47,169 nucleotides of DNA from Caulobacteraceae bacterium (lineage in GTDB: Bacteria; Pseudomonadota; Alphaproteobacteria; Caulobacterales; Caulobacteraceae): positions 1 to 47,169 of the forward strand of contig JAIERG010000061.1 in NCBI GenBank assembly GCA_019747095.1. Direction: 5' to 3'. The notes below the pieces were generated by a model. The model was not told the origin of the DNA. It made no database searches and saw only the letters and a list, made by a program, of their open reading frames with translations. A program made the position numbers and the translations under genes. Positions 2,370 to 19,882 of the stretch are shown here, one piece after another (position 1 is the first letter of the stretch; every line of letters starts with the position of its first letter).

Positions 2370-3278
2370 TCACATCGATGCCGGCGGCATCTGCACGCCC
2401 ATCGCCGCGACGAGGCCGAGCAGGGCTATCCCGGCGGCCATCTCCACGCCGACGCTGATCCGCAGGCTTTGAACCGCCTCGCCGGTGTCGTCGCCGGCCT
2501 CGATCGCCCGCTCCAGGGCTGGAGTCAGGGTGTAGCGGTTGTGCGAGGCGAGCCAGACCATGATCGTGAACAACAGCAGCTTGGCGAACAGCAGCTGGCC
2601 CCACGCGGAGCTGGCGAGGCGGTCAGATCCTTCCGTCCCGACCAAAAAGGCGGTGTTGACCATGCCGCTGAGTGTCAGCGCCAGCACGGCCGCCGTTCCC
2701 ACGGTCCCGAACCCGGCCAGGGATCGGGCGGAGGCCTCGACTTCGCCTCGCTCACGACGCGCCAGCATCAAGCAGAAGCCGGCGAGGGCCCCCAACCACA
2801 CAGCGGCGGCGAGGGCATGAATGACGTCGGCGATCAGATGGACCAATCCGGCCGCGCCCTCGCTGGACGCCCCGTGGCCGCTCCAGGCGAAACTGGCAGT
2901 GGCCCCGGCGAACGCCACAGCGGCCATCACCGTCACCAAACGTTGCCCCCGGCCTGCGAGCAAAAGCAGCACCCCGAGGAAGGCAAGACCGGCGCGGGCG
3001 ACATGCGCCATCCCCAGGCTTGTCGACTGGATGACGTAGCCGATCGCGGCCACGTCCAGCGCCGCGCCCCATCCTCCGGCCATCATGGCGGTCTGGGCCA
3101 GAAGGCCGCCGACCGCACCGACTGCCAGCAGCAGTCCCGAAAGCACGACCGTCGAGCGCCATGCGGTTTCCGCCGAGGTCGCCGGGCAATACAGTCGAAA
3201 CAGAGGCAGCCCCAGAGCCACCACGGCGACTGCGTACTGAAGCCACCGGAACAGGACGACGATCAGATCGATTGGCAC
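2370..3278 (-). CDS. copD: Copper resistance protein CopD family, multi-pass membrane protein
   Basis: 302 aa, multiple hydrophobic segments, HALAAAVWLGALAGF and LLFAKLLLFTIMVWLASHNRY motifs; next to copC. Confidence 0.88.
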   Translation of the reverse strand: MPIDLIVVLFRWLQYAVAVVALGLPLFRLYCPATSAETAWRSTVVLSGLLLAVGAVGGLLAQTAMMAGGWGAALDVAAIGYVIQSTSLGMAHVARAGLAFLGVLLLLAGRGQRLVTVMAAVAFAGATASFAWSGHGASSEGAAGLVHLIADVIHALAAAVWLGALAGFCLMLARRERGEVEASARSLAGFGTVGTAAVLALTLSGMVNTAFLVGTEGSDRLASSAWGQLLFAKLLLFTIMVWLASHNRYTLTPALERAIEAGDDTGEAVQSLRISVGVEMAAGIALLGLVAAMGVQMPPASM

Positions 3279-3279
3279 G

Positions 3280-3639
3280 TCAGCGGACGGTGAAGCTGTA
3301 TGTTCCAGTCATGCGGTGTCCGTCAGCCGCCGCGATCGCCCAGGTCACCCGATAGGTCCCGGTCGCAAGCGGCGCAGCGAACGACCCTGTAAGGGTCTTT
3401 CCGTCGTCCGACACGGATCGGGTCACCGGGACTGTCCGACCGCGACCATCCTCAACCTCGATGCTCGAGAACGGAGCGGCGAACCGCTCGCTGAAGGTGA
3501 GCGCGACAGTACGCGGAGCGCTGACGGTCGATCCATCAGCGGGAGTCGCGGCCAGAAGTCGCGCGTGCGCCGCGGCTGGAGACGCCGAAGCGACCAGCGC
3601 CGCTGCGCCTGCCAAGGACAGAATGCGATTGGAGAACAC
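3280..3639 (-). CDS. copC: Periplasmic copper resistance protein CopC
   Basis: Signal peptide, then HARLLAATPADGSTVSAPRTVALTFSERF ... GTYRVTWAIAAADGHRMTGTYSFTVR, a classic CopC pattern. Confidence 0.93.
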   Translation of the reverse strand: MFSNRILSLAGAAALVASASPAAAHARLLAATPADGSTVSAPRTVALTFSERFAAPFSSIEVEDGRGRTVPVTRSVSDDGKTLTGSFAAPLATGTYRVTWAIAAADGHRMTGTYSFTVR

Positions 3640-3924
3640 GTTTCAGAGGCCTTTCACGAGCCGGGCACCAGCTGGTCTTGGTAGACCAGTAATCCTTACC
3701 AACCCGGCCTAGCATAGCCTGGAACACAACATCTTCGATGTCTTCGGCGACGCCGATGAACATGCGCCGAATCACGCGTCAGCACTTGGCAGAGAGCGGC
3801 CCCGCCGAAGATCGGCTCTGAGCCAGAAACGGCCTCATGGCCGTCCCACTGGGCACCTACCTAACCCCAAGCGGAAGCGCCTTCCGGCTTAGCATGACCG
3901 GGCGTCAAAGCTAGCGCTACTCTC

Positions 3925-3976
3925 GAACGGTGGTGCCGCTTAGGTGACTCGAACACCTGACCCCCTCATTACGAAT
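3925..3976. repeat. Direct repeat A: 3' half of tRNA-Thr (46 nt, 3931-3976) plus 6 bp; att-like
   Basis: 52 bp (gaacggtggtgccgcttaggtgactcgaacacctgaccccctcattacgaat) identical to 19801-19852, which overlaps the intact tRNA-Thr; the 5' half of the tRNA is absent here. Confidence 0.9.
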
Positions 3977-4200
3977 TCAGCTGAAGGATTGAGCTGGAAG
4001 CATGCCCACAAAGGGTTTGTGGGCCAAAGGCGACCGGTGCTCTCGCGGCCCCCAGCCCCTTCCCAGACTGGCCGAACGGCCTCTTGTGGCACCTCCCAAG
4101 CTAACGATCTTTAGCTGGGAGAGCCGTCGAAATTCGACCTGCGCCATACCTGTAAGGCGCCTGTTCAGAAACGACTTCAACCAAAGTCCGGTTTGTGGGC
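3977..4200. repeat. Element end block, copy 1 (noncoding)
   Basis: Similar to 16783-17002, including gcccccagccccttcccagactggcc and a 31-bp identical block gcacctcccaagctaacgatctttagctggg. Confidence 0.8.
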
Positions 4201-4237
4201 GTTGCGCCGCAGATGGCTCGGCAAGTCGTTTCCGCCG

Positions 4238-4903
4238 CTAAACACGGAGCCGACCCTGCTGCATGGCGACATAGACAGCCTCACCGCGCGAGTTGACCGC
4301 GAGCTTGCGGTAGATGGCCTTGACGTGGTTGCCCACCGTCAGGGGCGAGATTCCCAGTGAGCGCGCAGCCTCTTTGTAGCTTTGGCCAAGCGCGAAGACC
4401 TGCAGGAGCTCGATCTCGCGGGGCGTTAGGCGCTCCTGAGGAGTATCGTTGGCGGGAACAGCGACGGGCTCGGACTGACGTAGGCGGTCCAGCAGGTAGA
4501 CTGCGGCCGATGCGCTGATGGGAGCCCCGCCCATCAGGGTCACCTGAATACCCTCGACGACGGCCTCGGGCGTGCTGTCTTTCAGGAGATAGCCGTCCGC
4601 GCCCGCGCTGAGTGCCGCGACCACGGTGTCCCTGTCACCAAACGCTGTAACCACAAGAACCTTGCAGCCCGAGCCACGCTTCAGTTCGGGGATGAAGTCC
4701 AGCCCGCTCCCATCAGGCAATCCAATGTCGCTCAGCACGATGTCTGGGTCCAGTTGGACAATGCGCTGAGCTTCGGCGAGGCTCGACGCGGTGGCGCAGA
4801 CGACCAATGAGGGCGAGGCGGAGACGATCTCGGTGAAGTGTGTCAGGACGTTGGGGTCGTCCTCGATGATAGCCACACGACGGGGGGCGTCCTCTTGCAT
4901 CAT
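4238..4903 (-). CDS. NarL/LuxR-family response regulator
   Basis: REC domain (VAIIEDDPNVL, DIVLSDIGLPDGSGLDF, LVVTAFGD, YLLKD) and LuxR HTH (LTPREIELLQVFALGQSYKEAARSLGISPLTVGNHVKAIYRKL). Confidence 0.93.
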   Translation of the reverse strand: MMQEDAPRRVAIIEDDPNVLTHFTEIVSASPSLVVCATASSLAEAQRIVQLDPDIVLSDIGLPDGSGLDFIPELKRGSGCKVLVVTAFGDRDTVVAALSAGADGYLLKDSTPEAVVEGIQVTLMGGAPISASAAVYLLDRLRQSEPVAVPANDTPQERLTPREIELLQVFALGQSYKEAARSLGISPLTVGNHVKAIYRKLAVNSRGEAVYVAMQQGRLRV

Positions 4904-6792
4904 GCTTCTTTCGGGTAACGGGGCAGAAGGAGATCGATGCCGGTACCGGTCCTGGAGGAGTCGATCTGAAGTTGGCCGCCGATGAGGTTGGCGCGCGCGG
5001 TCATGTTTCGGAGGCCGTGACCGGATGTGCCCGGTTCGGAGATGCCCTTGCCATTGTCGCGGATAGTCAGCGACACAGTGTCGTCGTCAGGATCGGCACC
5101 GACGACGATGTCGATCCTGGTCCCTCCGGAGTGCTTGAGGGCATTGGTGACGGCCTCCTGAAGGATTCGGAAGATCTGAAGGACTGTGCGCGGTGAGTAG
5201 TCAGGCAAGCTGATTTCCGGCGGGATCGACCAGACCATCTGGAAACCTGCTGCCTCAATTCGCGGGCGCACACGGTCCTGGAAGGTGGTCAGCGCCAAGG
5301 CGAGGGACTCGCCGACCGAGTCCATCGAGTCGATCATCAGGCGCATCTCGTCGATGACCGACTGCAAGCCCTCTGCGACCGAAGCCGGATCAGCCTTTCC
5401 ACGCCGCGCCGCCAGCAGCATGCCCATCAGTTGGCTCCCCAGACCGTCGTGCATGTCGCGCATGATGCGACGGCGCTCCTCGTCATGAGCTTGCTGGCGG
5501 ACCGCTTCGCGTTCTCTCGCATGAGCCTGAGCCAGTTCCGCCTCACGCACGGCCAGTCGTTCGCCGAGCAACTGGTTCAAGCTCATGGCCGATCGGAACA
5601 GGGTGAAGTTGCGCTGGATGAAGGCGACGACCAGCGCAAGGAGCAAGACCGGCGCGGAGTCGACGACGTACTTGCCCTCGTTGATGTTGAAGTACGCCCC
5701 GAGGGCATCCAGTACGACGCAGACGGCGACGATGGTCAGCAATCCCGCCTCGATCCTACGATCCTCGTCCGCAGTCGCAAAGTGCAGGATCAGCCGCAGA
5801 ACGACGGCGGCTCCCATGAAGGTGGTCAGGGCAGACCAGGCCACGCCGGGGATGTCATATGCTTGCGGCATGGGCACAAAGGCCAGACAAGCCGTGGTAC
5901 CGGCAACAAAGACCAGCCAGACCGCCGCTGCGCCTGGTTGAAGCCAACGCAGGGGCCGCCGTGTCCAGGCATCGACAAACCCGAGTAGAGCTACCGAGAG
6001 CAAGCTGTTTGTCGCGAAGAAGGCGACGATCCTCGCAATGCCGCCGATTGGATAATCCAGGACAAGGGCGTAGGCGGCCAGACCGCTCCACGCGAAGCAC
6101 AGTGTGGCCAACCAGGTCGCGAAAGCCCGTTCCTGTGACCTGAACGCCATGACGATCGCGAACAGACCAAGGATGAACGTGGTCCATCCCCCAATCAGTA
6201 TGCTCTCATTCGTCTGCCAGAGACGGCGTGCCGCCCATGTCTTCACCTGGTCCGCGGGCGCCAGGATGGGAGTGTAGAGGTCCGTATAGGGCAAGCCGTC
6301 CCGCACAGTGATGAAGCTGACTGTGTTCACACCTGTTAGGAGCAATCCTGAGGGAACAAGGACCACACGGCCCTTCTGGCCCTGAAACGTCTGTCGCCCG
6401 ATTGTCATTGATCCATCGGCCGCGACGACGGAGCCGTTGACCAGAAGGATCATGTTGTCGACCTGCTGATAGGCCAGCAGACCCAGGCCCTGCTCGGGGA
6501 CCTCATCCAGAACGAAGTCCAGCTTGAGGGACAGGTAAACAGGGTCGCAACAGTCTGTGTACGGCAGGGTGACTGTCCGATGCGTTGCAGCTTCGGCAGC
6601 CTCGAGGGTCGGGGCGGACAGTTCCGCCAGCCGAATGTCGCTGAACGTGACGCGGTCGAGTTCGCCAGCGGACTGGACCGAGAGGAGAGGCTGATAGACG
6701 CCGAACCAGAACAACGCCTGAACCAGCAGGACGATGGTCGCAAACAGCAGAAGCCGACGATGCTTTGGAGTTCCTGGCGTCATGACCGCCAC
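4900..6792 (-). CDS. Membrane sensor histidine kinase, HisKA_3/DegS type, with 7TMR-DISM-like N-terminus
   Basis: EERRRIMRDMHDGLGSQLMGMLL phosphoacceptor motif, LQEAVTNALKHSGGTRIDI N-box, GHGLRNM; several TM segments; overlaps the response regulator by 4 bp. Confidence 0.9.
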   Translation of the reverse strand: MAVMTPGTPKHRRLLLFATIVLLVQALFWFGVYQPLLSVQSAGELDRVTFSDIRLAELSAPTLEAAEAATHRTVTLPYTDCCDPVYLSLKLDFVLDEVPEQGLGLLAYQQVDNMILLVNGSVVAADGSMTIGRQTFQGQKGRVVLVPSGLLLTGVNTVSFITVRDGLPYTDLYTPILAPADQVKTWAARRLWQTNESILIGGWTTFILGLFAIVMAFRSQERAFATWLATLCFAWSGLAAYALVLDYPIGGIARIVAFFATNSLLSVALLGFVDAWTRRPLRWLQPGAAAVWLVFVAGTTACLAFVPMPQAYDIPGVAWSALTTFMGAAVVLRLILHFATADEDRRIEAGLLTIVAVCVVLDALGAYFNINEGKYVVDSAPVLLLALVVAFIQRNFTLFRSAMSLNQLLGERLAVREAELAQAHAREREAVRQQAHDEERRRIMRDMHDGLGSQLMGMLLAARRGKADPASVAEGLQSVIDEMRLMIDSMDSVGESLALALTTFQDRVRPRIEAAGFQMVWSIPPEISLPDYSPRTVLQIFRILQEAVTNALKHSGGTRIDIVVGADPDDDTVSLTIRDNGKGISEPGTSGHGLRNMTARANLIGGQLQIDSSRTGTGIDLLLPRYPKEA

Positions 6793-7032
6793 GCTGCAGG
6801 GACCAGACCGTGGGCGTCAGAGGTCACCGGCCCCACTTCGCGATCGCGCGGCGAAAACCTCATCATGATGAACCTTCCCTGAAAGACGGCTGTTCGGCGA
6901 CCACCATATCCATGGCGGTGGTTGGCCCCCACGGCCAAGCTCTAGACCGGCGCTCTCCAAAGGGCGATCCGGCGTGTTCGGAACGCTCAGCCCAATCACG
7001 GCACATTCGTGCCTGTTCGTGAGCAACCCACC

Positions 7033-7494
7033 ATGAAATCCTCTGTTCTCTTCCCCGCGATCGCAGCGCTCCTGACCCTCGCTGCGTCTCCAGTTCTGGC
7101 CCAGAATGCGGGCCTGACCGCCAACGCCGGCGAGATCCGTCTGAACGCTGGCTTCACCCCCGATCCGTATACGGTGTCCGTGGTCGCCGGCGGGAGCATC
7201 AATGGCGGGGCCCTTCCCGGGGCCTGCACGGGCATGATCAGCGACGCCCCCGATTTCGAGGTTAGCTATTCGGCAGGCAGCTTCCCCTTGGTGTTCCGCA
7301 CTCTGTCCTCGGAAGACACGACGCTCATCATCAACGGGCCGGATGGAAGCTGGTATTGTGACGATGACAGCTACGGTGACGGTGACGCCGAGGTCCGGTT
7401 CAACCGCCCCAGCAGCGGTGTCTACGACATCTGGGTGGGCACCTTCGGTGGTGGGACCGCCTCCGCAACTCTGGTGATCACAGAGACGCCCTGA
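7033..7494 (+). CDS. Secreted hypothetical protein with PPC-like beta domain
   Basis: Signal peptide MKSSVLFPAIAALLTLAASPVLAQ; C-terminal LIINGPDGSWYCDDDSYGDGDAEVRFNRPSSGVYDIWVGTF. Confidence 0.7.
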   Translation: MKSSVLFPAIAALLTLAASPVLAQNAGLTANAGEIRLNAGFTPDPYTVSVVAGGSINGGALPGACTGMISDAPDFEVSYSAGSFPLVFRTLSSEDTTLIINGPDGSWYCDDDSYGDGDAEVRFNRPSSGVYDIWVGTFGGGTASATLVITETP

Positions 7495-7591
7495 CCAGCG
7501 GCTCTCACATTCGGGTGCGTATCACGGCTGGGCTCACCAGAGCCCAGCGACCTTTCCCTGATCAACGCTTCTGCCCTCGATCGGAGCAGCC

Positions 7592-8728
7592 ATGCCTGAC
7601 TCGCATCGCGTGACAACGCGCGAAAACTATTTCCAGCGTTTGGGGAGCAGCCTGATCGGTGCGCTGATCGGTCTGGTTCTGCTGATTGTCGCCTCGATCG
7701 TTCTGTTCTGGAACGAAGGACGTGCCGTGGATGCATCGCGCGGGCTGGATGCGGGGTCGCGCGCAGTGGTCAGCCTTTCGGCACCCACCATAGACGCCTC
7801 CCGAGATGGCGCGCTGATCCACATGTCGGGCAATGCGGTCACCACCGCCCCTCTCATTGATCCTGCCACCGGCGCAGCGTTTCCGGCGACCCTGACGCTG
7901 GTCCGTCAGGTCGAGATGTATCAGTGGATCGAAACGGCGACCTCCGAGACCGAGGAAAAGCTGGGCGGGACCCAGGAGACCACGACCACCTACACCTATG
8001 CCAAAGGGTGGTCGGAACAGCAGCAGGACAGCGCGTCCTTCCAGGTTCCAGCAGGGCACAGCAATCCGGCCATGCCGTTCGCCAATGGTCGTGTAAATGC
8101 ATCGGACGCCCGGCTGGGGGACTTCCTGCTGCCGGAGGGTGTTCTCGAGCGGCTCGATGGAGAGAGCCCTGCCCTGCCGCCCGTGACCCCCGAGGGTTGG
8201 CGTGTCGAGGGTGGACAGCTCTACAGGGGGGCGGGCTCTGCGGCCCAGCCTCAGGTCGGCGATCTGCGTGTCACCTACACGCCGCTGGCGTCGAATACTC
8301 CGGTGTCGGTCGTGGGCCGCCAGGACGGACAGACACTCGCGGGCTGGGTTCGTCCCGGTTCCGATTTTCCGGTGCTGCTGGCCAGCCGTGGCTTGATCGG
8401 TGCAGACCTCATGATCGAGGCCGAGAAAGGTCAGCAACAGGCCATGACCTGGGTCTTTCGCGGCCTCGGGCTCGTACTGAGCATCATCGGCTTCACCCTG
8501 CTTCTCAACCCGCTTCGGGCAATTGCCAATGTCGTTCCCCTCGTCGCTTCGGTGATCGGCGCAGGAACCGGGATCATCGGCTTTGCACTCGGCGTGCTTC
8601 TGACGACGGTCGTGATCGCTGTGGCGTGGTTTGCCGTGAGGCCCCTTCTGTCGGTCGTCCTCGTCGCGACCGGGATTTGCGTCTGGCTCGGCGTGCGTCT
8701 CGTCGCCCGCAGACGCAAGGCCGCCTGA
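7592..8728 (+). CDS. TMEM43 (LUMA) family membrane protein
   Basis: 378 aa; one N-terminal TM followed by FWNEGRAVD, a long extracytoplasmic domain, then C-terminal TM segments (VFRGLGLVLSIIGFTLLLNPL ...). The FWNEGRAV motif and topology match the TMEM43 family. Confidence 0.8.
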   Translation: MPDSHRVTTRENYFQRLGSSLIGALIGLVLLIVASIVLFWNEGRAVDASRGLDAGSRAVVSLSAPTIDASRDGALIHMSGNAVTTAPLIDPATGAAFPATLTLVRQVEMYQWIETATSETEEKLGGTQETTTTYTYAKGWSEQQQDSASFQVPAGHSNPAMPFANGRVNASDARLGDFLLPEGVLERLDGESPALPPVTPEGWRVEGGQLYRGAGSAAQPQVGDLRVTYTPLASNTPVSVVGRQDGQTLAGWVRPGSDFPVLLASRGLIGADLMIEAEKGQQQAMTWVFRGLGLVLSIIGFTLLLNPLRAIANVVPLVASVIGAGTGIIGFALGVLLTTVVIAVAWFAVRPLLSVVLVATGICVWLGVRLVARRRKAA

Positions 8729-8800
8729 CATCGGCTTGCTCGCCGTCCCTTTCGCGCCGCGGTGGTCCACCCGGTCGCTTCCCTTCTGGAAAAGATCATC

Positions 8801-9349
8801 ATGACCTTCGTTGGAACCGCCCTGAGCCTGACTGCCTTGGCCCTTGCCGAAGCTCCGACTGCTGCTCCCCAGACTATTGCTGCGGAGTGGGCCGCCGTCA
8901 GTGCGCTGGAGCCAAGCGGTGGTGCGGGATCGGTGCAGTCCTCGGGCTCGCTTGCTCCACAGCGTCGGACAGCTGTCGCCTTCCTTTGCCCCGAACGCTG
9001 GTACGGTGGCTTGGCGGGGACCGACCGGCCAGACCCCGAGATGTGCTATCCTGGTCCGGGTGCTACGCCGGCCTATCCTCCCGCGGCCGACGAGGAGCCC
9101 TGTATCGCAGGCTACGTCAGAAGCAGCACCTGGTGCGTCCAGAACCCCGAAGCCATCACAACGTCCGGTGGCCCGGCGTCGGCCAGCCCCGTCAGTTGCC
9201 CGCGCCCGACCTCAACAACCGCCAATGCGGGATCCGTACTCGGAGGGCTGCTTGGAAGCCGGCGGGGCAATGCCCAAGCGGGCGCAGCGCTCGGTGGGAT
9301 GCTGGGCAATGCTTTCAGCGGTCAGGCCTCATCATCAAACTGCCCCTGA
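8801..9349 (+). CDS. Secreted hypothetical protein with C-terminal glycine-zipper-like segment
   Basis: N-terminal hydrophobic leader, conserved-type Cys residues, C-terminal GSVLGGLLGSRRGNAQAGAALGGMLGNAF. Confidence 0.55.
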   Translation: MTFVGTALSLTALALAEAPTAAPQTIAAEWAAVSALEPSGGAGSVQSSGSLAPQRRTAVAFLCPERWYGGLAGTDRPDPEMCYPGPGATPAYPPAADEEPCIAGYVRSSTWCVQNPEAITTSGGPASASPVSCPRPTSTTANAGSVLGGLLGSRRGNAQAGAALGGMLGNAFSGQASSSNCP

Positions 9350-9387
9350 TCTCACTGTCGACGACTGCTCCGGCGACGCTTCGAAAT

Positions 9388-9563
9388 CCGACCTGCGCGA
9401 TACCTGCAAGACGCCTCTTCAGGAACGGGCTCAGCCGAAGTCCGGTTCGTAGGCGATCTTCTCGATGACCTTACTGGCCGCGCCACGGGTCGCATAAACC
9501 CCGACGATAACCCCCTTGTCGGTCGCTTCCTCGATCCGGTGCAGCTCCCACCGCTTTTCGGGC
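9388..9563. repeat. Internal copy of the element-end/small-ORF repeat
   Basis: 9431-9563 differs from 16983-17115 at about 4 positions; 9388-9430 resembles 4130-4172 and 16936-16980. Confidence 0.85.
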
Positions 9564-9601
9564 GTTTGGGTCAGGCGGAAAGCGCGGCCGCTCTTGCGCA
9601 T
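9431..9601 (-). CDS. Small hypothetical protein (56 aa), paralogue of 16983-17198
   Basis: MRKSGRAFRLTQTPEKRWELHRIEEATDKGVIVGVYATRGAASKVIEKIAYEPDFG; below the length cutoff of the supplied ORF track. Confidence 0.6.
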   Translation of the reverse strand: MRKSGRAFRLTQTPEKRWELHRIEEATDKGVIVGVYATRGAASKVIEKIAYEPDFG

Positions 9602-9694
9602 GAAGAATGTCTTTGACCCCTGAAGGGGTGTCCACCTGCAGTCCGCACTGCCGCCCTCGACGCTACCGTGCTCCTCTGGCTATGGGGCCAGACC

Positions 9695-11716
9695 CTAGTC
9701 GCCGCGGGATCCGTCTCTATCCCGAGCGATCCCGGGGGCTCTGGATAAGACATCTGCGGTCAGTCCGTGAGCGACGGCTTCGAAGTATCTGGATCGGCAC
9801 GCTGTGTCCTCGAACGGCAGCGCCTGTAGTGCGAAGCTGCCCAATCCTTCGGGATAGATGCGCAGAAACGCTTCGCGGCGCGACACAAGAGCCTGGCGTC
9901 TTCCGAGGATCGCTGCCGTCGCTATTCCAGTCATCAGCGCAGAGGGATGGCTGTCATCCCCCGCCAGGGCCAACTCAATGAAGCGCTCTGCGTCTTCCAT
10001 CCTTCCAGCCATGAACTCGGCCATCGCCCGGCCCGACATCAGGCCGTTGGCACCATAGGCGAGGGGATTGAGACGCTCGGCCTTGTCGAACATCGCATGA
10101 GCCAAGCCGGCCTCGGCCTTCATGGCATGCATCCAGCCACCACAGATCCACGCTGTGTACTCATTGGGATTAAGGGCGATGGCTCGCTCGATGGATTTGC
10201 GGGCCACTTCGAACTCATGCGCCATGTAAAAGAGCGCCGTGCCGGCCGTGGCTTGGGTGCGTGCGTCGTCACGACCATGGATGAGGGCATCCCGGCTCAT
10301 CTGCGCAAATCGCTGAAGGTCGTCGGGTGTCTTGATCGCATTCCCGTATGCCGCCGCCCAAGGCGTCATGGCGAGCGCAGGATGGAACCGAGGGTCGATC
10401 GATAGAGCCTGTTCGAAGAGCGTCAGGGCCAGTCCATAGTCGCGCCCTTCCAGGCTAAAGCCCGCGAAAAGGCCGCGAAGATAGAGCTCGTAGGCGTCTG
10501 CAGAAGACGTTGGTCGCACCTTGCGCAGCCGCAATGCTTCAATCTGCGCCTGAGGCTCGACCTGAACAGCAATGTCGGCCGCTGCCGTCTCTTGCAGATC
10601 CCAAAGATCCGAAAGAATGCCTTCGGACTGACCGAGGGCGAGCATCCGTCCGCTCTCACCGTCCACGGCTCGCCAGCGCAACCTGAGGCGTCCATCGATC
10701 GCGAGAGTCAGGGACCCGCCGACCAGCACCGTTGCGCCAAGCGCCGCCGCTGTTGTGACGGGGTCCTCCAGGCGACCTGCATAGCTGGCCGTTGACGCCG
10801 CATTGATGACCACAATCGAGCGGAACCGTGAAAGAGCGTGGGTCAAGCCATCCAGAAACCCTGCCGGAATGTGGCCGGGCAGGGCCTCGGCGCTCAGGTC
10901 CTGGAAGGGGAGAATCGCGACAACTGGTAACCCCTCAGGACCCTCTACCTTTGCGGTCGTTCCGGACCGCCTTGGTACAGCCCCATCTCGGAGGGCAAGC
11001 CGGAGCTCTGGCCCTGTCTCGACGCCAACGAGACGCATCTGGCGCTCTGTCTGCGAGACGAACTGTTGCGCCTCATCCTTGCGGCCGATCTCTACGAGAG
11101 CCCTAACCAACGCGGCACAAGCACCCTCGTCCATCGGATCCAGAGAAACCAGGCGATGAAGATGGGCTACCTTCGCGGATCCCTCGGAGGCCTCAACCTG
11201 CTGGCGTGAGAGACTCAGGGCGAGATTGCGAAAATCTTCCCTCTGGGCGGCCAACCAGGCCGTGTACTCGGGGCGATCGGGAAGCTCGGCGTCGCCAAGC
11301 AGTTCGCCATCCATGAGGTTCAAGGCTTCTGTTCGCTCAGCCATAGAGAGCGAGCCCGCGTTTTTGCTCATCAGCTGAGAAGCATAAGCGGCGTCGACTT
11401 CCGTTCCGTCGAGGTCAAGGCGAACGGTGTCGCGATCTGCGATCAGGCGGCGTCGGTCAGATGTGTCGGTCAAGGGGCGGAGCTTCGTCAGGCTCCAGCG
11501 CAGAGCGGCCCGAGGATCGTCGGGCTGTTCGAAGAAGAGCTCGCAAAGTCGCTGCCGCGCAACAGGCCGTCCTGTGAGCGCCAGATAGCCTAGGATAGCG
11601 CGCGTCTTCCTCGAGGCCGGGATGGGTAGGTCCATACCACCCCGGCGGATCTGCAGGGGGCCGAACAGCCGAAGCTGCAAGCGCTCAGGGTCGGTCTCGG
11701 CAGCCATAACGCCCAA
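9695..11716 (-). CDS. BTAD/SARP-type transcriptional regulator with TolB-like and TPR regions (possible start 11707)
   Basis: N-terminal winged helix (LRLFGPLQIRRGGMDLPIPASRKTRAILGYLALTG), BTAD (DGELLGDAELPDRPEYTAWLAAQRE), VAILPFQDLSAE TolB-like segment, C-terminal TPR-like helices. Confidence 0.85.
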   Translation of the reverse strand: MGVMAAETDPERLQLRLFGPLQIRRGGMDLPIPASRKTRAILGYLALTGRPVARQRLCELFFEQPDDPRAALRWSLTKLRPLTDTSDRRRLIADRDTVRLDLDGTEVDAAYASQLMSKNAGSLSMAERTEALNLMDGELLGDAELPDRPEYTAWLAAQREDFRNLALSLSRQQVEASEGSAKVAHLHRLVSLDPMDEGACAALVRALVEIGRKDEAQQFVSQTERQMRLVGVETGPELRLALRDGAVPRRSGTTAKVEGPEGLPVVAILPFQDLSAEALPGHIPAGFLDGLTHALSRFRSIVVINAASTASYAGRLEDPVTTAAALGATVLVGGSLTLAIDGRLRLRWRAVDGESGRMLALGQSEGILSDLWDLQETAAADIAVQVEPQAQIEALRLRKVRPTSSADAYELYLRGLFAGFSLEGRDYGLALTLFEQALSIDPRFHPALAMTPWAAAYGNAIKTPDDLQRFAQMSRDALIHGRDDARTQATAGTALFYMAHEFEVARKSIERAIALNPNEYTAWICGGWMHAMKAEAGLAHAMFDKAERLNPLAYGANGLMSGRAMAEFMAGRMEDAERFIELALAGDDSHPSALMTGIATAAILGRRQALVSRREAFLRIYPEGLGSFALQALPFEDTACRSRYFEAVAHGLTADVLSRAPGIARDRDGSRGD

Positions 11717-11843
11717 GCTTTAGCGGAAATCATCCCGATTCAAACGGCGTTCCAACGCTTCATCGAACGGCCGCGCCAACGCCTCGGCATCACAACGCTC
11801 CCACCAAGACGGGAAGGGCCCGTCGCCACAGGGAACAAAGAAA

Positions 11844-12437
11844 ATGAAATCCAGCCTACTTTTGACCGCAGCGGTTACGTTGGTCAGTACGGTCGCGTCT
11901 CACGCAGCAGCTCAACAGTTCAGCGGCCCGTATGTCGCCGTTGAAGCTGCTCACGAAGATTATGATGCTGTCGACGGCGAAAGCTTCGCGCTGATCGCAG
12001 GCTGGGACGTGGAGGTCGCGCCGGCCTGGGTTGTGGGTGCGAGCATCCGGGCGACCGTCGATGGCGTTACCGATACGCGGATCCAGACCCTCGGGGCGAA
12101 CACGGCAACGACTGAAACGGCTCTCGAAGACCAATGGAGCGTCAATACCCGGATCGGTCGTGTGTTCGGCGATCGTGTCCTTGTTTTCGGGCAACTCGGC
12201 TATGAGCAGTTCCACTACAACGCGGTTCGCGAGCTTCGCGCGCCCGTGTGCGTCCCCCCGAATGGATGCCTGATCTCGCGCCTGGACGCCTCTTTCGACG
12301 AGGAGATGGTCACCTACGGAGCCGGGGTCGAATGGGCGGCGACGGACCATTGGCGTCTGCGCGGCACCTACACCTTCGGCGACGGTGACGCTTTTGAGCA
12401 GAAGCGCTTCGCAATCACCGCTGCGTTCCAGTTCTGA
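11844..12437 (+). CDS. Outer-membrane beta-barrel protein (OmpA/Omp25-like)
   Basis: Signal peptide ending SHAAAQ, FSGPYVAVEAAHEDYDAVDGESFALIAGWD, terminal FAITAAFQF with C-terminal Phe. Confidence 0.8.
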   Translation: MKSSLLLTAAVTLVSTVASHAAAQQFSGPYVAVEAAHEDYDAVDGESFALIAGWDVEVAPAWVVGASIRATVDGVTDTRIQTLGANTATTETALEDQWSVNTRIGRVFGDRVLVFGQLGYEQFHYNAVRELRAPVCVPPNGCLISRLDASFDEEMVTYGAGVEWAATDHWRLRGTYTFGDGDAFEQKRFAITAAFQF

Positions 12438-12471
12438 GCGCCAGCCAGTCTCACCCGTCCTGGGTAAAGCG

Positions 12472-12657
12472 ATGACCTTCCTGATGAAGTTTGGCATCCT
12501 GCCGGCGGCCTCGGTCGGGCTTTATCTGATCACGGCCGTCACCACCGATCCTCGTCGAGCAAATGAGGAGGATCGGTGCTCGGCCCCCGCGAGCGCCAGC
12601 ATGACGCTGGACCTTCGCGAGACGCTCGAGTGCATCAAGTCCCGCCTTGGGGCCTGA
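12472..12657 (+). CDS. Small hypothetical protein with one N-terminal hydrophobic segment
   Basis: MTFLMKFGILPAASVGLYLITAVTTDPRRANEEDRCSAPASASMTLDLRETLECIKSRLGA; sits in a compact same-strand cluster. Confidence 0.45.
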   Translation: MTFLMKFGILPAASVGLYLITAVTTDPRRANEEDRCSAPASASMTLDLRETLECIKSRLGA

Positions 12658-12662
12658 CCCCC

Positions 12663-12977
12663 ATGTCAGGGCTTCTCCCAGGCCGCACTGGACCTCAGGT
12701 GATCTGCCTCGCGTGCGAGGCTCACGATGTCGATCGGCGCGTCAGCGAGATCGAGAGCCTTGCAGATCGGCTTGAAGGACACGCGCAGATGCAGAGCGTG
12801 ACCGGTCGGACCACCGCGCTGGCCGTGTCCCTTCCGCTCGTCCACGCCGAGCGCTTCGCCGCCGCTCTCGCTCTGATCGGGGCGACGACGATCGAGCTCG
12901 GAGGAGCCTCCTCACCCTCAGAGTTCCTCGTCGTCATCACTCTGGAATCCAGCCTGTCAGAACGGAAAGACACATGA
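12663..12977 (+). CDS. Hypothetical protein (104 aa)
   Basis: Stop overlaps the next start (ATGA at 12974), indicating translational coupling; no family recognised. Confidence 0.5.
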   Translation: MSGLLPGRTGPQVICLACEAHDVDRRVSEIESLADRLEGHAQMQSVTGRTTALAVSLPLVHAERFAAALALIGATTIELGGASSPSEFLVVITLESSLSERKDT

Positions 12978-13699
12978 AAACCGCTCTTCTCTTTGCCGCA
13001 GCCTCCGCATTGGCGCTTGGCGGCTGCACAAGCATCCAGCCTGCGCGCATGGCTTTGCCTCAAGAACTGGCCTCAACCGCGGTGATCTTGCCTGTCACGG
13101 GCCTTGGCGCAGGGCGCTCAGGGGCGTTCCGAGTCGGCCCTTACTCGGGTCGATTCACACGTTCGGACGAGCGCCTGGGAATCTTCGATCCGATGTTCGA
13201 ACGCCGCGATGGCCGCACGGACTTTGAGCTGACCGGCCCCGAGATCGTCGGCTCCATCCGCGTCGCCTGTCGAGCGCAGGAGCGCACGGTCACGCTCGGC
13301 CTCCTGAGCTTTGAAGCCCAGCCGATGACCTTTGGTTGTGACATCTCCTCGGTCGGCTCCGACCCTGCCAGGCTGGAGATGCGCGCTCACCGCGAGGGAT
13401 TGGGAGGCCGGTTGATGCGGCAGGAGCGGCGGGGGCAGATCACTCTGGACGGCAACACCCTCCAGATCCGCTCCGCTCATGACGTCGAGGGATCCGGCAT
13501 CCAGCTGGCGACGCCGATTGGTTACGTCTTCGACCAGGACGAGGCCTCGATCGGGGCCGTCGAAATCAACGGTAGTCCCACTGTCATCTACGATCCAGTT
13601 GTGAGCGCTAGTGCCCGTCAGGCCATCCTAATCGCATCGGTCGCTCTTGGCCTCTTCTGGGACCCCGCCGAAAGCGCCCTCGGCCGGGAGGGCGAGTGA
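12974..13699 (+). CDS. Predicted lipoprotein of unknown function
   Basis: MKTALLFAAASALALGGC lipobox; 241 aa; overlaps neighbours on both sides (ATGA, TGATG). Confidence 0.75.
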   Translation: MKTALLFAAASALALGGCTSIQPARMALPQELASTAVILPVTGLGAGRSGAFRVGPYSGRFTRSDERLGIFDPMFERRDGRTDFELTGPEIVGSIRVACRAQERTVTLGLLSFEAQPMTFGCDISSVGSDPARLEMRAHREGLGGRLMRQERRGQITLDGNTLQIRSAHDVEGSGIQLATPIGYVFDQDEASIGAVEINGSPTVIYDPVVSASARQAILIASVALGLFWDPAESALGREGE

Positions 13700-14724
13700 T
13701 GCGGACAAGCACAGCCGAAACTCTCGGGATTATGGACGCTAGACGTCGAAGAGCGCCACGGCCTTCGATCAGACGACTGGTCTGGATGGCTGGCGCTGCG
13801 GTCGCGCTGGCCCTGGCCGGATCGGTTACCTACTTCCCCGCATCCGCACAGGACGCTGGGCCCGCTGCGCGCCCGGTGCCCGCACCAACAGTCCATGTCA
13901 CGGATCTGACACCGCGCTTTCTCACGTTTTTCGAAACGGCCCAGGGGCTTGATGCCGATGCCAGGTTCGATGTCTGGCGTCAGACCTATGGCTTCGCTGC
14001 CGTCCCGCCGACCCCTCAGGGTGAGGCCATGGCGCGGAGCCTGCTGGACACCGCATTTGAACGCTACCCTTCAGTCATGCCCCGGATCGAGGCCGGTGCC
14101 GGTGGCATGGGGATCGATCCCGGTGCAGCGGCTTCAGAAGTCGCCGTGCTCCTGGGAGTCGATCAGGCGATTGAGATCGATTTTATAGTGTTCGTCGGCG
14201 GGTTTGAGCAGAACGCGTTCACTTTTCGCGCGCGGAGACCGACCGTGGCCGTGCCCGTCGAGGTTGACCCTGCCTACCAGGCGCTGGCTGGTCGACACGA
14301 GATCGTCCACGCCCTGCACATGGAGATTGCCGAGCTATCGGGCGGATGGGAGCGTTCGATCGCTCAACTCATCCTCCAGGAAGGCCTTGCGATGCGAGCG
14401 ACGCAGGCCCTGATGCCGGATCGACCGGACCTGGAGCACCTCTCAGCCGGCCCGGAATGGTGGGCTCGGGCGAACGAGCGACGTCGCGAGATGCTGATCG
14501 GTGCCTTGCCGCTGCTTTCGGCCTCTGATGGGGCAAGCGTCACGCGCCTCGCCATGGGCCCCGGCGTCGCCGGGCTGCGACGCGAGGCCTACTATCTCGG
14601 CTGGATCATCGTTGGGCGTCTGCTTGGCGAGGGTTGGACGTTCCCTGCGCTTGCCCGGGTGTCCTCCGAGGACATGCCCGATCTCATTCGAGGCGCGATC
14701 GAGCGAGAGCTCGCCGTGTCCTGA
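13699..14724 (+). CDS. Predicted zinc metallopeptidase (HEXXH gluzincin-like), membrane-anchored or secreted
   Basis: N-terminal TM/signal, RHEIVHALHMEIAELSGGW with HEXXH, downstream ILQEGLAMRATQAL containing a candidate third-ligand Glu. Confidence 0.65.
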   Translation: MRTSTAETLGIMDARRRRAPRPSIRRLVWMAGAAVALALAGSVTYFPASAQDAGPAARPVPAPTVHVTDLTPRFLTFFETAQGLDADARFDVWRQTYGFAAVPPTPQGEAMARSLLDTAFERYPSVMPRIEAGAGGMGIDPGAAASEVAVLLGVDQAIEIDFIVFVGGFEQNAFTFRARRPTVAVPVEVDPAYQALAGRHEIVHALHMEIAELSGGWERSIAQLILQEGLAMRATQALMPDRPDLEHLSAGPEWWARANERRREMLIGALPLLSASDGASVTRLAMGPGVAGLRREAYYLGWIIVGRLLGEGWTFPALARVSSEDMPDLIRGAIERELAVS

Positions 14725-14797
14725 GGACATCGACCACCCGACAAGAATGATCACCGCCAAGGTGGCCCTGATTTCCCTTTCCTGTGGAGACTCAACG

Positions 14798-15841
14798 ATG
14801 AAAGCCTTCCTCAGTCGGCGCACCGTGATTGCGGGGAGTGCCTTCCTGCTGAGCAGCCCTGGTGCAGCCACCAGAGCCAAAGCCAGTTGCCAGCCACTCT
14901 CTCCCGACTGGAGTGGTGTTGTCCTCTTCAACGACGGCGGCGCTTCAATCGTTCGCGCTCAAGGCAACCTTTACACGGGCGGTCCGGCGATCACGGCCGA
15001 GACACGATTCAACATCCTCTCGCTCGGAAAGATGATCACCGGCGTGTTGGTGGGGCAGTTGGTCGATGCAGGCTATGTTCGATACAGCGACCCGGTCTCG
15101 GTTCATCTGCCCGATCTTCCGTCGCGCATCGGTGACCTTCGGGTTGGCGATCTGCTCACCCATACGTCTGGCCTCGGCGACTATATCGAGGCGGAGAACT
15201 TCGGGGCCATCGCGGCGGCCCGATCTGCGACCGATCTACTGCCGCTGGTGCTCGCCGCTCCCCACGAGGCCCCTGGCGCGCCCACCTACTCTAACTCCGG
15301 CTATGCGGTGGCGGGGGCCCTGATCGAGCGGATCACGGGTCAGACCTACAAGGACCGGCTCTCAGAACATGTGTTCGCACCCTGTGAAATGCGGTCTGCG
15401 AGCCTCCATCCTCGGGCTGACGACGCCCTCGCCGAGCCGGCGTATGAGGCGTTGCGCTCGGGTCGACCTTCGGTGGGGACCCTCCCCGGCGGCCCGGCTG
15501 GCGGGGCCTTCATGAACGCCGGGGATATGGCGCGCTTCGCACAGACGCTGCTCTCCGGCCGGCTGGTGAGCGACGCAACACGTGACGTCATCACGAGCAT
15601 TCAGGCGGAACGGCAGCCGTTGGCTGCGGACGGCATCCGGCGAGGCTGGGGATTCGGCTTCGGAGTGCGTGGCGAGGGTACAGAGCGTTCGATCGGCCAT
15701 ACCGGCGGCCTGCCGGGGTTCAGCGCCGCCTGCCGCATCCAGCCCTCGCTGGGCCGGATCGTGGTGGCGCTCGCGAACCAGGATCGCCTTGGTGCTGCCG
15801 AAGTGTCGAGCGCGGTCATGGCGAACCCTGATCTCTGCTGA
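14798..15841 (+). CDS. Serine hydrolase, beta-lactamase class C/penicillin-binding fold
   Basis: Tat-like SRRTVIAGSAF leader; SLGK (SXXK), YSNSGYAVAGALIERITG, GHTGGLPGF motifs. Confidence 0.85.
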   Translation: MKAFLSRRTVIAGSAFLLSSPGAATRAKASCQPLSPDWSGVVLFNDGGASIVRAQGNLYTGGPAITAETRFNILSLGKMITGVLVGQLVDAGYVRYSDPVSVHLPDLPSRIGDLRVGDLLTHTSGLGDYIEAENFGAIAAARSATDLLPLVLAAPHEAPGAPTYSNSGYAVAGALIERITGQTYKDRLSEHVFAPCEMRSASLHPRADDALAEPAYEALRSGRPSVGTLPGGPAGGAFMNAGDMARFAQTLLSGRLVSDATRDVITSIQAERQPLAADGIRRGWGFGFGVRGEGTERSIGHTGGLPGFSAACRIQPSLGRIVVALANQDRLGAAEVSSAVMANPDLC

Positions 15842-15997
15842 ACCTGAAAGCTCAAGCTCTGCCGACGATCTGTTTTGGCTCTCGCAAATGCCGCAGGAAC
15901 GGGCTCTCCAGGTACCGGAACAGCAAGCGACGCACTTCCTGCTGCCGTTCGTATGCGAACATCGGTTCGCTACCCTCTATCCGGTCAAGAGCACGGC

Positions 15998-16594
15998 CTA
16001 ACGCCGTGGGGTCGGGCTCAGTGCCCGAGCAGCCTCTGCCCATGCCTCGGATATCTTCGCCCAGTCCGCAGGCTTTGAGGCTCGAACCAAAGGCGAGTTG
16101 TGCAGCGAGCGAAAGATGGCCAAGCCTGTCCCGGCCAGCAGGGGCTCGGCTTTGGCAGCCTTCCTCCCGACCAACACCACAACTTCGACACTGGGTAGCA
16201 GGGCTATCAGGTTGCGGACCTCGGCGGCCCCCTCAGCAAGCTCCTGCCTCGTGATTTTGCGAATGCCATTCCAACCTGGCACCACATTCCACATGACCGT
16301 GTCCTGCCGCCGTATCCCCGCGGCCTCCATGAAGAGGAAGGTAGACTCGGCCGTAGGGTCGTCATTGTCCCGGCTGATGAACCCCGAGCCAGCCCGTCCA
16401 GCGCGGGATGCCGAGGTCATTGGCCCGGGCCTCTCCTTGAGGAACAGCATTCGAGCATTGATCCCACCATCCAGGGGGTCGAAGTCTGGCACCTCGACGC
16501 CGTGGCGAGCGCGAAGGTCGGCAGCAAACCCTGCAAGCGGCGCGATGTACGGTTTGGCCCGATTGCCGAGCCGTTGACAGCTGGCGTGCCGCAT
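15998..16594 (-). CDS. Uracil-DNA glycosylase-superfamily protein
   Basis: ARMLFLKERPGPMTS, FISRDNDDPTAESTFLFMEAAGI, TVMWNVVPGWNG, SLHNSPLV resemble UDG-superfamily motif blocks. Confidence 0.7.
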   Translation of the reverse strand: MRHASCQRLGNRAKPYIAPLAGFAADLRARHGVEVPDFDPLDGGINARMLFLKERPGPMTSASRAGRAGSGFISRDNDDPTAESTFLFMEAAGIRRQDTVMWNVVPGWNGIRKITRQELAEGAAEVRNLIALLPSVEVVVLVGRKAAKAEPLLAGTGLAIFRSLHNSPLVRASKPADWAKISEAWAEAARALSPTPRR

Positions 16595-16734
16595 CCAGTC
16601 AGCAACGACTACCGCCTACAGTCACCACGAACCGAGGGCTGAGATCACTCCCTCTGGGCACCCACCCCGCACCCAAGCGGAAGCGCCTTCCGGTCGGACC
16701 CGGCCAGACGCTAAGGCTAGAGGTGCTCTGGAGA

Positions 16735-16782
16735 GGTGGTGCCGCTTAGGTGACTCGAACACCTGACCCCCTCATTACGAAT
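16735..16782. repeat. Direct repeat B: 3' half of tRNA-Thr (46 nt, 16737-16782); att-like
   Basis: 48 bp identical to the corresponding parts of repeats A (3925-3976) and C (19801-19852). Confidence 0.9.
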
Positions 16783-17002
16783 TCAGCGGAAGCTTCAGAC
16801 CGAGCCCATGCCCCGCAAGGGTTTGAGGGCCAAAGTCGGCCGGTGATCTCGCCGCCCCCAGCCCCTTCCCAGACTGGCCTAAAGTGCTGGTTTTGCACCT
16901 CCCAAGCTAACGATCTTTAGCTGGGCGGGCCCCCGGAATTCGACCTGCGCCATACCTGCAAGAAGCTTGCTGAGGAAAGGACTCAGCCGAAGTCCGGTTC
17001 GT
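16783..17002. repeat. Element end block, copy 2
   Basis: Similar to 3977-4200 (see there); runs into the small ORF on the minus strand. Confidence 0.8.
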
Positions 17003-17198
17003 AGGCGATCTTCTCGATGACCTTACTGGCCGCACCGCGGGTCGCATAAACCCCGACGATAACCCCCTTGTCGGTCGCTCCCTCGATCCGGTGCAGCTCC
17101 CACCGCTTTTCTGGCCATGAGTCCTGAACCAAGCGGGCGGTTCGACAAACGCCTTTGGTTCCGGCCAATCGTTGGATCCAATCCTCACGGTGTCCCAT
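16983..17198 (-). CDS. Small hypothetical protein, paralogue of 9431-9601 (ORF open to 17261)
   Basis: ...PEKRWELHRIEGATDKGVIVGVYATRGAASKVIEKIAYEPDFG, near-identical C-terminal 40 residues. Confidence 0.55.
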   Translation of the reverse strand: MGHREDWIQRLAGTKGVCRTARLVQDSWPEKRWELHRIEGATDKGVIVGVYATRGAASKVIEKIAYEPDFG

Positions 17199-17301
17199 GT
17201 GCCGGGCGCGTTCTGGGTGTGGCGTCAGCGTCTGCCGGACCGTGCGGGTTGAAGATCGCAAGGGTACCGCTATCGTCTTTGCGAGCTTTTATGGGGTGTT
17301 G

Positions 17302-18396
17302 ATGATGCGGATCGGTCTTGTTCTCTGCTCGGTGGGGGTGACCGCAACGATAGTGCTAGCGATGGCAGGGCCAACTGCGGCCCAGTCCAATCCCTGTATC
17401 GAGCTAGGTCAGTATATCGATCCGAACGGCGATGACATCTGGACGGTGCCTCCAAGCAACGCAGCAGCACTCGACGCAGCCAATCGTTGTATTGCGACCC
17501 AAGGCGGCACAGCCAATCTATATGGGATCCGAGCCTACATTCATCGCCTTATGGGCAACTACGCTCTTGCAGATGCTGACGCGACGCGTCGTATCGAGAT
17601 AGAGCCAGCGGGAAACGCTTATCGGAACCGCGCCATTATCAGACAAAACGCAGGCCGGCACGAGGAGGCCATTGCTGATTTGCGCGTGAGTCTCCGTCGT
17701 GGGTACAATCGACCGGCAGTGGCTCACCAAGAGATAGCCGCGTCACTTCGACAACTCGGGCGCTATTCGGAGGCTCTAGCTGCGATAGAGCTGTCTGCGT
17801 CTCTTGATCCTGACTACGAGTGGGCCCTGTACGAGCGGGGCCTTATTTTCTTCGACCAGGAGCGGTGGGATGAAGCCATTGGTGCCTTCACGCGCTACAT
17901 CGCGATAAACAGGTCGAACGCCCAAGCCTATGTCTACCGCTCGACCTCCTTTTTTCGGCTCGAACGCTGGAATGATGGGCTCTCGGACGCAGATCGGGCA
18001 ATCCAGATCGATCCCCGCAGTGCCAACGGCTTCAATAACCGCGGCTTTGCGCTCCACAATCTCGGTCGCTACAGCGAGTCGATTGCTGCTTTTCGCCGAT
18101 CGATCCAGCTTGAACCTACGAACGCGTCGGCCTGGGACAATCTTTGCTCCTACCTGACGGACACTAACGATCCGGCTGGCGCATTGGTGGCGTGCGATCG
18201 ACGTGAAAGCTTGTCGGGTATCACGAGCCGCGATCGGGCCCGCGTCCATAGTTATAGGGGTCTTGCTTATGAAGCCTTGGGCGATATCCCCAGTGCGGTG
18301 GAGGCGTTCCGCACCGCACTGGCCAGTCCTGACGCCCACGCAGCTACTCGCGAGCGTGCCGAGGCTGGGCTGCTACGGTTAGGATATCGCAACTGA
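17302..18396 (+). CDS. Secreted TPR-repeat protein
   Basis: Signal peptide MMRIGLVLCSVGVTATIVLAMAGPTAAQ; repeated helices such as YEWALYERGLIFFDQERWDEAIGAFTRYIAINRSNAQAYVYRS and SANGFNNRGFALHNLGRYSESIAAFRRSIQLEP. Confidence 0.85.
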   Translation: MMRIGLVLCSVGVTATIVLAMAGPTAAQSNPCIELGQYIDPNGDDIWTVPPSNAAALDAANRCIATQGGTANLYGIRAYIHRLMGNYALADADATRRIEIEPAGNAYRNRAIIRQNAGRHEEAIADLRVSLRRGYNRPAVAHQEIAASLRQLGRYSEALAAIELSASLDPDYEWALYERGLIFFDQERWDEAIGAFTRYIAINRSNAQAYVYRSTSFFRLERWNDGLSDADRAIQIDPRSANGFNNRGFALHNLGRYSESIAAFRRSIQLEPTNASAWDNLCSYLTDTNDPAGALVACDRRESLSGITSRDRARVHSYRGLAYEALGDIPSAVEAFRTALASPDAHAATRERAEAGLLRLGYRN

Positions 18397-18645
18397 CATG
18401 ATCTGGATACGCAAACGTCCAATGGCCCCTCAGCGTCGGTGGCGCTGGTGTGTCCCATCAGCCCACATGCATGGTTCAGGTCAGAAGCGGCCGCTGTAGC
18501 TCACACCGAGGGCCGACCTCGCGGCCCTGACCGCGCAACGGACCTGACGAAAGAGCAGCTAGGGGTGGACATCGGAAACTAGCTCGGCCGACCACCAAAG
18601 CCCGACGCGGAGGCCGCTGTCGGCCTGCGCACCAGTACGGCCCAA

Positions 18646-19464
18646 TCAGCGAAAGGACCCCGTACGGCTGAATACCAGCTCACAGCCTGACCAGTTGAGC
18701 TCCGTCGGATTTCCATCAGCCTGCAGCGGTGTTGGCCTGGGCGGGATCGCAGACGGCAGTTCCAGACCTGAGATTACCATGTTCCCGGACTCATCGAAGC
18801 GCGCAGTTCCGCTTTGGTCGCCGACGGTCAAGGCCCCGCTCATGCGATCGAATGTATACGCCTGGCGGGCATCCCAAATTGACGGGCCAAGTCCGAGATC
18901 GAACAGGACTAAGCCTTCAGGGGCGAAACGGACTTCAACGGGTGCCGGGCTGCCGAAACACCCCTCCTGAGCCACCGACCGCCAGTTGCCTTGGATCCCG
19001 CTCTCATTGGCCCCGACAATCGGCAGGACAAGAGTGTGTGCGTGGCCGTTGGCGGTTACTGTGACCCGAATCTCGCTGCCCGAAGCGGCGGAGTCGCTGA
19101 CCTGAAGCACGCGCCGGTCGCTGGACAACGTGGCAGCTTCAGGCGGATCGATCTGCCAGAAATCGACGCACCTCAGCGGAATGTGCTGGGGGCCGGAAGC
19201 TGAGAACTCGAAGCTGTGGCGGAGGTCCACTGTCTCGCCCGGCCTTGCGGAGGCAGGGTCGGCCGTGAGCCGATGGCCAGACGGAACGTTACAGTTCACC
19301 AGTGCACTGCGCCGGCCGGGCTCCTCATGCCGGTCGATCACGCTGCGAAGTATATGCCCTCCGGAGTAAAACCCCGGGCTGGTCGTCGTACATGCCGCAA
19401 GCGTGAGCAGGCCGGGCAGAACCACAAAGCGTTTCAGATACCCCAAGGTGTGTCCTCTCTCCAC
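18646..19464 (-). CDS. Predicted lipoprotein of unknown function
   Basis: VLPGLLTLAAC lipobox; 272 aa; no family recognised. Confidence 0.65.
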   Translation of the reverse strand: MERGHTLGYLKRFVVLPGLLTLAACTTTSPGFYSGGHILRSVIDRHEEPGRRSALVNCNVPSGHRLTADPASARPGETVDLRHSFEFSASGPQHIPLRCVDFWQIDPPEAATLSSDRRVLQVSDSAASGSEIRVTVTANGHAHTLVLPIVGANESGIQGNWRSVAQEGCFGSPAPVEVRFAPEGLVLFDLGLGPSIWDARQAYTFDRMSGALTVGDQSGTARFDESGNMVISGLELPSAIPPRPTPLQADGNPTELNWSGCELVFSRTGSFR

Positions 19465-19747
19465 CAGACCCCTTCAGCCCTCAATACTGTTCACCGACCC
19501 GCACGAGCTCGAACTCACAACTGGCTAGGCTAGGCCGCGGCGGATCGCCCGGCGGCAAGGGTGGGGGCGGCCGTCCGGAAGCATCGTAGTGTCTGTCGAC
19601 TGTGTCGCCACCCGGCCCTCCGAAATGTGCACCTATGGCCTCTGATACCCTCAGTCAGCGTACCCTGAAAGCAGCTGTTTCGAACCGCCGCCTGGAGTCA
19701 GGAGCGCCCTAATGGCCGGTCGGCCGGGCACCCATCCAGAACCCAAG

Positions 19748-19762
19748 CGGAAGCGCCTTCCG
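19748..19762 (-). terminator. Possible hairpin downstream of tRNA-Thr
   Basis: CGGAAG-GCG-CTTCCG 6-bp stem, 44 nt downstream of the tRNA; also at 3872-3886 and 16678-16692; no clear T-tract. Confidence 0.35.
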
Positions 19763-19800
19763 GTCGAGCCCGGTCGGACACCAAGGCTAGAGCTGCTTTG

Positions 19801-19852
19801 GAACGGTGGTGCCGCTTAGGTGACTCGAACACCTGACCCCCTCATTACGAAT
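19801..19852. repeat. Direct repeat C (att-like), overlapping intact tRNA-Thr
   Basis: 52 bp identical to 3925-3976. Confidence 0.9.
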
Positions 19853-19882
19853 GAGGTGCTCTACCAGCTGAGCTAAAGCGGC
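19807..19882 (-). tRNA. tRNA-Thr (anticodon CGT)
   Basis: GCCGCTTTAGCTCAGCTGGTAGAGCACCTCATTCGTAATGAGGGGGTCAGGTGTTCGAGTCACCTAAGCGGCACCA folds as a cloverleaf (GCCGCTT/AAGCGGC acceptor, CCTCA/TGAGG anticodon stem, TTCGTAA loop, AGGTG/CACCT T-stem) with encoded CCA. Confidence 0.97.

Follow-up and report, generated by a model that had tools for sequence, protein, structure and literature searches.

The window analysed here is a 47,169-nucleotide stretch of DNA that makes up the whole of contig C234 in a Caulobacteraceae genome assembly (239 contigs, 94% complete). It contains one intact tRNA-Thr(CGT) gene, detected by ARAGORN and the Rfam tRNA model on the minus strand at 19807–19882. The 46-nt 3' half of this gene, which spans the anticodon loop through CCA, is present three times on the minus strand with 46/46 identity: at 19807–19852 as the proximal attachment core within the tRNA itself, and as two displaced halves, an internal one at 16737–16782 and a distal one at 3931–3976. 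The seed ATTCGTAATGAGG occurs exactly three times in the window (3964–3976, 16770–16782 and 19840–19852) and never in 100 shuffles of the window sequence. A preliminary description of this DNA had reported the exact 46-nt repeats at these coordinates and segments of ~12.8 and ~3.1 kb between them; both are borne out, with site-to-site spacings of 12,806 bp for the larger segment (E2) and 3,070 bp for the smaller (E1). Leftward of all three halves, a weaker similarity continues for ~81 nt, and the resulting repeat family D1 spans 127 nt at 77–100% identity and includes a CCGGAAGGCGCTTCCG hairpin. The same description had recognized this extension and its hairpin, which are real, but had put the length at 85–95 bp. 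On the right side, ~200 bp are common to the two displaced halves (4001–4201 versus 16807–17007, 82%) and missing from the intact tRNA. An Rfam search of the flanking arms matched only the tRNA and no other known RNA.

By the approximate gene lists of a GC3-based gene caller, E1 (16783–19806; 3.07 kb from site to site) encodes a TPR protein, a lipoprotein-like protein and a small conserved ORF. E2 (3977–16736; 12.8 kb from site to site) encodes a LuxR-type regulator, a histidine kinase, a secreted protein, a TMEM43-like protein, a BTAD/TPR protein, a beta-barrel protein, a serine beta-lactamase-fold hydrolase and a UDG-superfamily protein. Neither element contains an integrase gene. PADLOC returned no match for the ten E1 and E2 proteins tested, and thus no defence cargo was found among them. 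Homologues of the E1 and E2 cargo were not found beside tRNA-Thr halves in the stretches of relatives examined. The E2 genes for the regulator, the kinase and the secreted protein (4238–7494) resemble an operon found elsewhere in many Brevundimonas chromosomes at ~66–78% DNA identity, and given these matches at other chromosomal places, E2 may have acquired a copy of a genus-typical operon. The small conserved ORF, which has no Pfam match and ends in ...KVIEKIAYEPDFG, is located just inside the E1 arm (16983–17261) and again just inside a relic arm of E2 (9431–9601), and could be part of the end of the element.

Beyond the distal half, positions 1–3930 carry copC, copD and a multicopper oxidase gene. 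In G007, taken as B. bacteroides DSM 4726, the cop genes directly follow the intact tRNA-Thr (85% over 3.6 kb), and therefore E1 and E2 are both absent there. A fourth copy of the tRNA-Thr half is located on contig C109 of the same genome as the window. Read in the tRNA orientation, C109 presents DNA that matches G007 ahead of the tRNA half (87%, 910 bp), then its own half and then metK, and the gap between the ends of C234 and C109 is bridged by ~2.7 kb of G007 sequence. Because the cop genes directly follow the tRNA in G007 and G007 bridges the two contigs, the cop genes appear to constitute a third element, E3, whose proximal part is at 1–3930 and whose far end and tRNA half are on C109. 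We infer the C234–C109 join, and hence the continuity of E3, from synteny with G007. With this link, the stack would run from the tRNA through E1 (3.1 kb), a half, E2 (12.8 kb), a half, E3 (cop) and a half to the metK side. E1, E2 and E3 have no cargo in common. The locus displays the intact tRNA at one end and the displaced 3' fragment at the other that characterize a tRNA-targeting island, but the integrase expected inside such an island is lacking from E1, E2 and the parts of E3 on C234 and C109.

The attachment sites extend well beyond the tRNA half. Upstream of the halves, alignment reveals a conserved arm U that consists of the doublet GCAGGTATNGCGCAGGT, a TTAGGAAA-like block and CTGGGAAG...CTGGG, and the distance from the doublet end to TTCGTAATG is ~162 nt (160–163) in nearly all cases. 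Downstream, arm D contains CTCTAGC, a GGAAG...CTTCC inverted repeat and spaced TGGGT repeats. In the window, all arms are on the minus strand: arm U of E1 is at 16783–16959, with the doublet GCAGGTATGGCGCAGGT at 16943–16959, arm U of E2 is at 3977–4153, with the doublet (one mismatch) at 4137–4153, and the D arms of E1, E2 and E3 are at 19726–19806, 16656–16736 and 3850–3930, respectively. Two arms that flank a short core resemble the layout of a lambda-type attP. Since arm D follows the left site and arm U precedes the right site, U, core and D would together rebuild a complete attP, and both E1 and E2 have a complete att site at each end (core with arms U and D), as expected of a CIME. The arms are presumably bound by the integrase of related elements, given the arm-binding PF13356 domain of that enzyme.

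The arms also retain traces of the history of the site. The arms of the three window sites differ by 15–32%. Both displaced halves of the window (16737 and 3931) retain full identity to the tRNA, whereas the arms have diverged and the C109 half has decayed, and E1 and E2 are therefore probably late arrivals. Within E2, positions 9382–9563 (minus strand; doublet at 9391–9407) are a 92% copy of the outer E1 arm (16934–17115) that is cut just past the doublet and has no tRNA half; this truncated arm U is, to judge by its sequence, the scar of an older element end. A decayed arm is also found on C109 at ~6113–6216, beyond the half of that contig. With these two additional arms, the site probably took at least five insertions.

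In 84,980 genomes, the pattern of doublet, spacing and core was found in 32 stretches, all but one of which have a tRNA-Thr-like 3' half beside the core; the scan was run without a control, and the chance expectation, estimated from the pattern length, is far below one match. The carriers are Brevundimonas, Sphingomonas, Sphingobium and Phenylobacterium, together with a few binned genomes labelled Phreatobacter, Rhizobium or Caulobacterales. One contig binned as Phreatobacter (L168, 1–2610) shares 2.2 kb of cargo, at 92% and in inverted orientation, with a tRNA-Thr element of the Brevundimonas genome G056 (L183, 3725–6155), so that either the cargo was transferred and inverted or the contig was mis-binned. 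At other loci, L062 (G030), L046–L047 (G024) and L059 (G100), the cores are merely 145–155 bp apart, with a tRNA or half, little beyond an arm and then another half, and these look like elements shrunk to their attachment site. Use of the arm motif at other tRNAs was considered and rejected: those matches within the genus that lie outside tRNA-Thr halves lack a tRNA core at the expected distance and look fortuitous.

The elements that have U-type halves as their boundaries are of two classes. Ten of them (11.7–23.9 kb) carry an integrase and a conserved module, eleven carry no trace of either, and two retain remnants; the eleven comprise E1, E2 and E3 (its parts on C234 and C109) and eight elements of other genomes. 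The integrase of the autonomous relatives is a tyrosine recombinase of ~383 aa with PF00589 and the arm-binding PF13356, and its conserved neighbours encode an XRE regulator, several kinds of short protein, among them small membrane proteins, and an ATPase that is VapE-like or similar. The VapE-like domain in an autonomous relative is only suggestive of a phage satellite. Since E1, E2 and E3 lack the integrase and the other core genes of the autonomous relatives, they are non-autonomous. The two classes share the U-arm similarity, which is absent where the element beside this tRNA carries an unrelated integrase (G101, G042 and G106). In the arm tree, integrase-less and integrase-bearing elements are interleaved, and in G024, taken as B. 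intermedia B-10, one element of each class lies side by side with U arms that are 96% identical. Thus, as in CIMEs, an integrase gene is lacking while a related autonomous element with the same att site exists. Among the elements compared, no two genomes shared a near-identical integrase-less element, which counts against the accretion reading proposed below.

The unrelated integrase family at this tRNA-Thr (L057, L058 and L081–L082) is encoded in opposite orientation and directly adjoins the distal half, in elements without a U arm. In the three integrase-bearing elements examined closely, L049, L052 and L184 (G047, G011 and G025), type I or type III restriction-modification genes lie beside the conserved module, and these elements represent a family of defence-bearing islands. 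An integrase-less element in L056 (G035, ~4700–8700) encodes asparagine-synthetase-like, PqqD-like and kinase-like proteins and, judged by eye, resembles a lasso-peptide cluster.

We propose that the tRNA-Thr(CGT)–metK interval of this Brevundimonas genome was built by tandem site-specific accretion of non-autonomous elements, a reading that the comparative sequence data make highly probable. Recombination between attP and the anticodon loop of the tRNA (TTCGTAATG) would be catalysed by an arm-binding tyrosine integrase like the 383-aa enzyme of the relatives. The incoming 3' half would rebuild the tRNA, and the old half would be displaced downstream to become the next boundary; repeated cycles would yield the stack. 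The elements are best read as members of a hitherto undescribed alphaproteobacterial integrase family. What is the source of the recombinase? Given that E1, E2 and the C234 and C109 parts of E3 contain no integrase, the enzyme either came in trans or was lost. Most likely, an autonomous relative that is now absent supplied it in trans; the chief alternative is that the elements lost their own integrase once inserted. A tblastn comparison of 15 integrase sequences from relatives with E1 and E2 gave only chance-level matches and no integrase relic. None of the seven integrases of the assembly itself is a near relative of the 383-aa family, the best matches being 32% over ~218 aa and 44% over 50 aa, and because the assembly is incomplete and fragmented, a further integrase may have escaped it.

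The alternative holds that E1, E2 and E3 are decayed autonomous elements whose own integrase was deleted after entry, leaving cargo between intact att sites. Integrase decay does occur in this family, as the second element of G007 keeps only the integrase C-terminus and an element of G022 keeps integrase and regulator remnants, and the truncated arm in E2 would be a sign of internal deletion or fusion. However, not a single remnant of the core module is found in E1, E2, the C234 and C109 parts of E3 or the eight other integrase-less elements. Two of these elements, with their intact displaced halves, appear too young to have shed every trace easily. Decay is therefore a serious contender that falls somewhat short of an even chance. 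The absence of remnants and the sharp two-class pattern make us lean towards trans supply, and supply in trans alone is modestly favoured.

Comparison with relatives at the locus bears on the remaining explanations. In G091, the proximal flank matches that of this genome (82.9% over 5.1 kb), with the match running slightly beyond CCA, and the distal flank matches C109 (88.8% over 7.5 kb) with similarity that begins exactly at TTCGTAATG; the distal halves of G091 and C109 have the same 1-nt deletion (AAGCGCACCA). Between these orthologous flanks, G091 carries one 1.7-kb element and this genome carries three. Such junctions, which fall exactly at the core both against G091 and across genera, argue against assembly of the stack by homologous recombination between repeats, for example if the end of the tRNA had been duplicated along with the DNA next to it. 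The tRNA half is indeed a perfect 46-bp repeat on which such recombination could act, but the three sites have divergent arms and the three elements share no cargo, and this explanation is very improbable. That the 3.9–19.8 kb region is ordinary core genome with coincidental tRNA fragments is a reading of next to no probability, refuted by G007, G091 and G130: some E2 genes (the kinase, regulator and secreted-protein operon) do have homologues elsewhere in many Brevundimonas, but E1 and E2 are missing from the locus in the relatives inspected (G007, G091 and G130), whose junctions lie at the tRNA, and in G130 and others metK is close behind the tRNA, the nearly empty site of G130 having ~250 bp between the tRNA core and metK.

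A hand count from the match table gives at least two matches to the site query in ~37 of 131 Brevundimonas genomes, with part of the extra matches inspected. That the cop element is the most ancient of the stack was considered and dropped because G091 lacks this element and gain and loss cannot be ordered; common cargo in E1 and the 1.7-kb G091 element was set aside, as the protein similarity is weak (22%).

Most expectations of the preliminary description agree with these comparisons. It had anticipated relatives with the cop genes adjoining tRNA-Thr and the segments absent, which is the arrangement of G007, and different cargo between the same repeats, which G091 provides, its flanks being orthologous at either end and the boundary falling precisely at the core; conservation of the 3.9–19.8 kb gene order as core, which it named as contrary evidence, was not observed in the relatives inspected. 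Its mobile-element reading is supported by the many relatives with integrases between the same repeats, and site-specific insertion stands, but the reading was incomplete: it missed the ~200 bp right-side arm, the truncated arm within E2, the fourth half on C109 and the missing integrase, which alters the mechanism. Its placement of the stack between the cop genes and hemD also fails at the cop end, where the cop genes form the third element and end at the half before metK.

More tentatively, and with a probability well below an even chance, the two classes may form a helper–satellite system. Autonomous islands, several with restriction-modification genes, would supply the arm-binding integrase at tRNA-Thr in alphaproteobacteria, and separate, repeatedly arising cargo units of 1.7–13 kb would carry only the matching attP arms and stack in an integron-like manner with lambda-type sites. 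Integrase-less islands are often dismissed as remnants. The present site, within a single genus, provides ten autonomous and ~11 non-autonomous elements with the same two-arm site, near-fixed spacing and a named candidate integrase, and carriage of integrase-less cargo units in trans is directly testable at tRNA-Thr. The site also makes it testable how lineage-specific genes such as those for copper resistance, two-component signalling and a relative's lasso-peptide-like cluster gather beside one tRNA.

The Brevundimonas elements resemble known systems in different respects. Like the tRNA and tmRNA islands mapped by Islander (PMC4383910), they combine an intact tRNA at one end, a displaced fragment at the other, a tyrosine integrase family and a crossover in the anticodon loop; in contrast to those islands, the elements described here form a stack in which none encodes its own integrase, and an island mapper that requires an integrase would therefore miss them. 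With CIMEs and their tandem accretion with ICEs and IMEs (PMC5704250), they share att-flanked, recombinase-less, tandem organization and the expectation of movement with a related integrase. However, classical CIMEs derive from conjugative elements, and in the three integrase-bearing relatives inspected along their length, no gene for conjugation stood out. The Dehalococcoides ssrA islands, 16 of 31 of which contain an integration module (PMC3146451), likewise comprise several tandem islands at one RNA gene with direct-repeat boundaries, partial integrase content and niche cargo, but they use tmRNA and a serine recombinase rather than tRNA-Thr, a tyrosine integrase and a two-arm attP. Integrons and CALINs (PMC11389934) are also integrase-less cargo arrays at one site that a related integrase could use in trans, whereas the present units measure 1.7–12.8 kb and have a two-arm attP and a tRNA core. 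Neither attC nor IntI was seen, and the sites are tRNA halves with arms rather than attC hairpins, in a comparison made without a dedicated attC model. In the literature consulted, we found no paper that joins Brevundimonas, genomic islands and tRNA-Thr, and nothing on Brevundimonas members of this element family. Tandem islands at RNA genes, CIMEs and mixed arrays are thus already known, and the new component is a family of CIME-like tRNA islands at tRNA-Thr.
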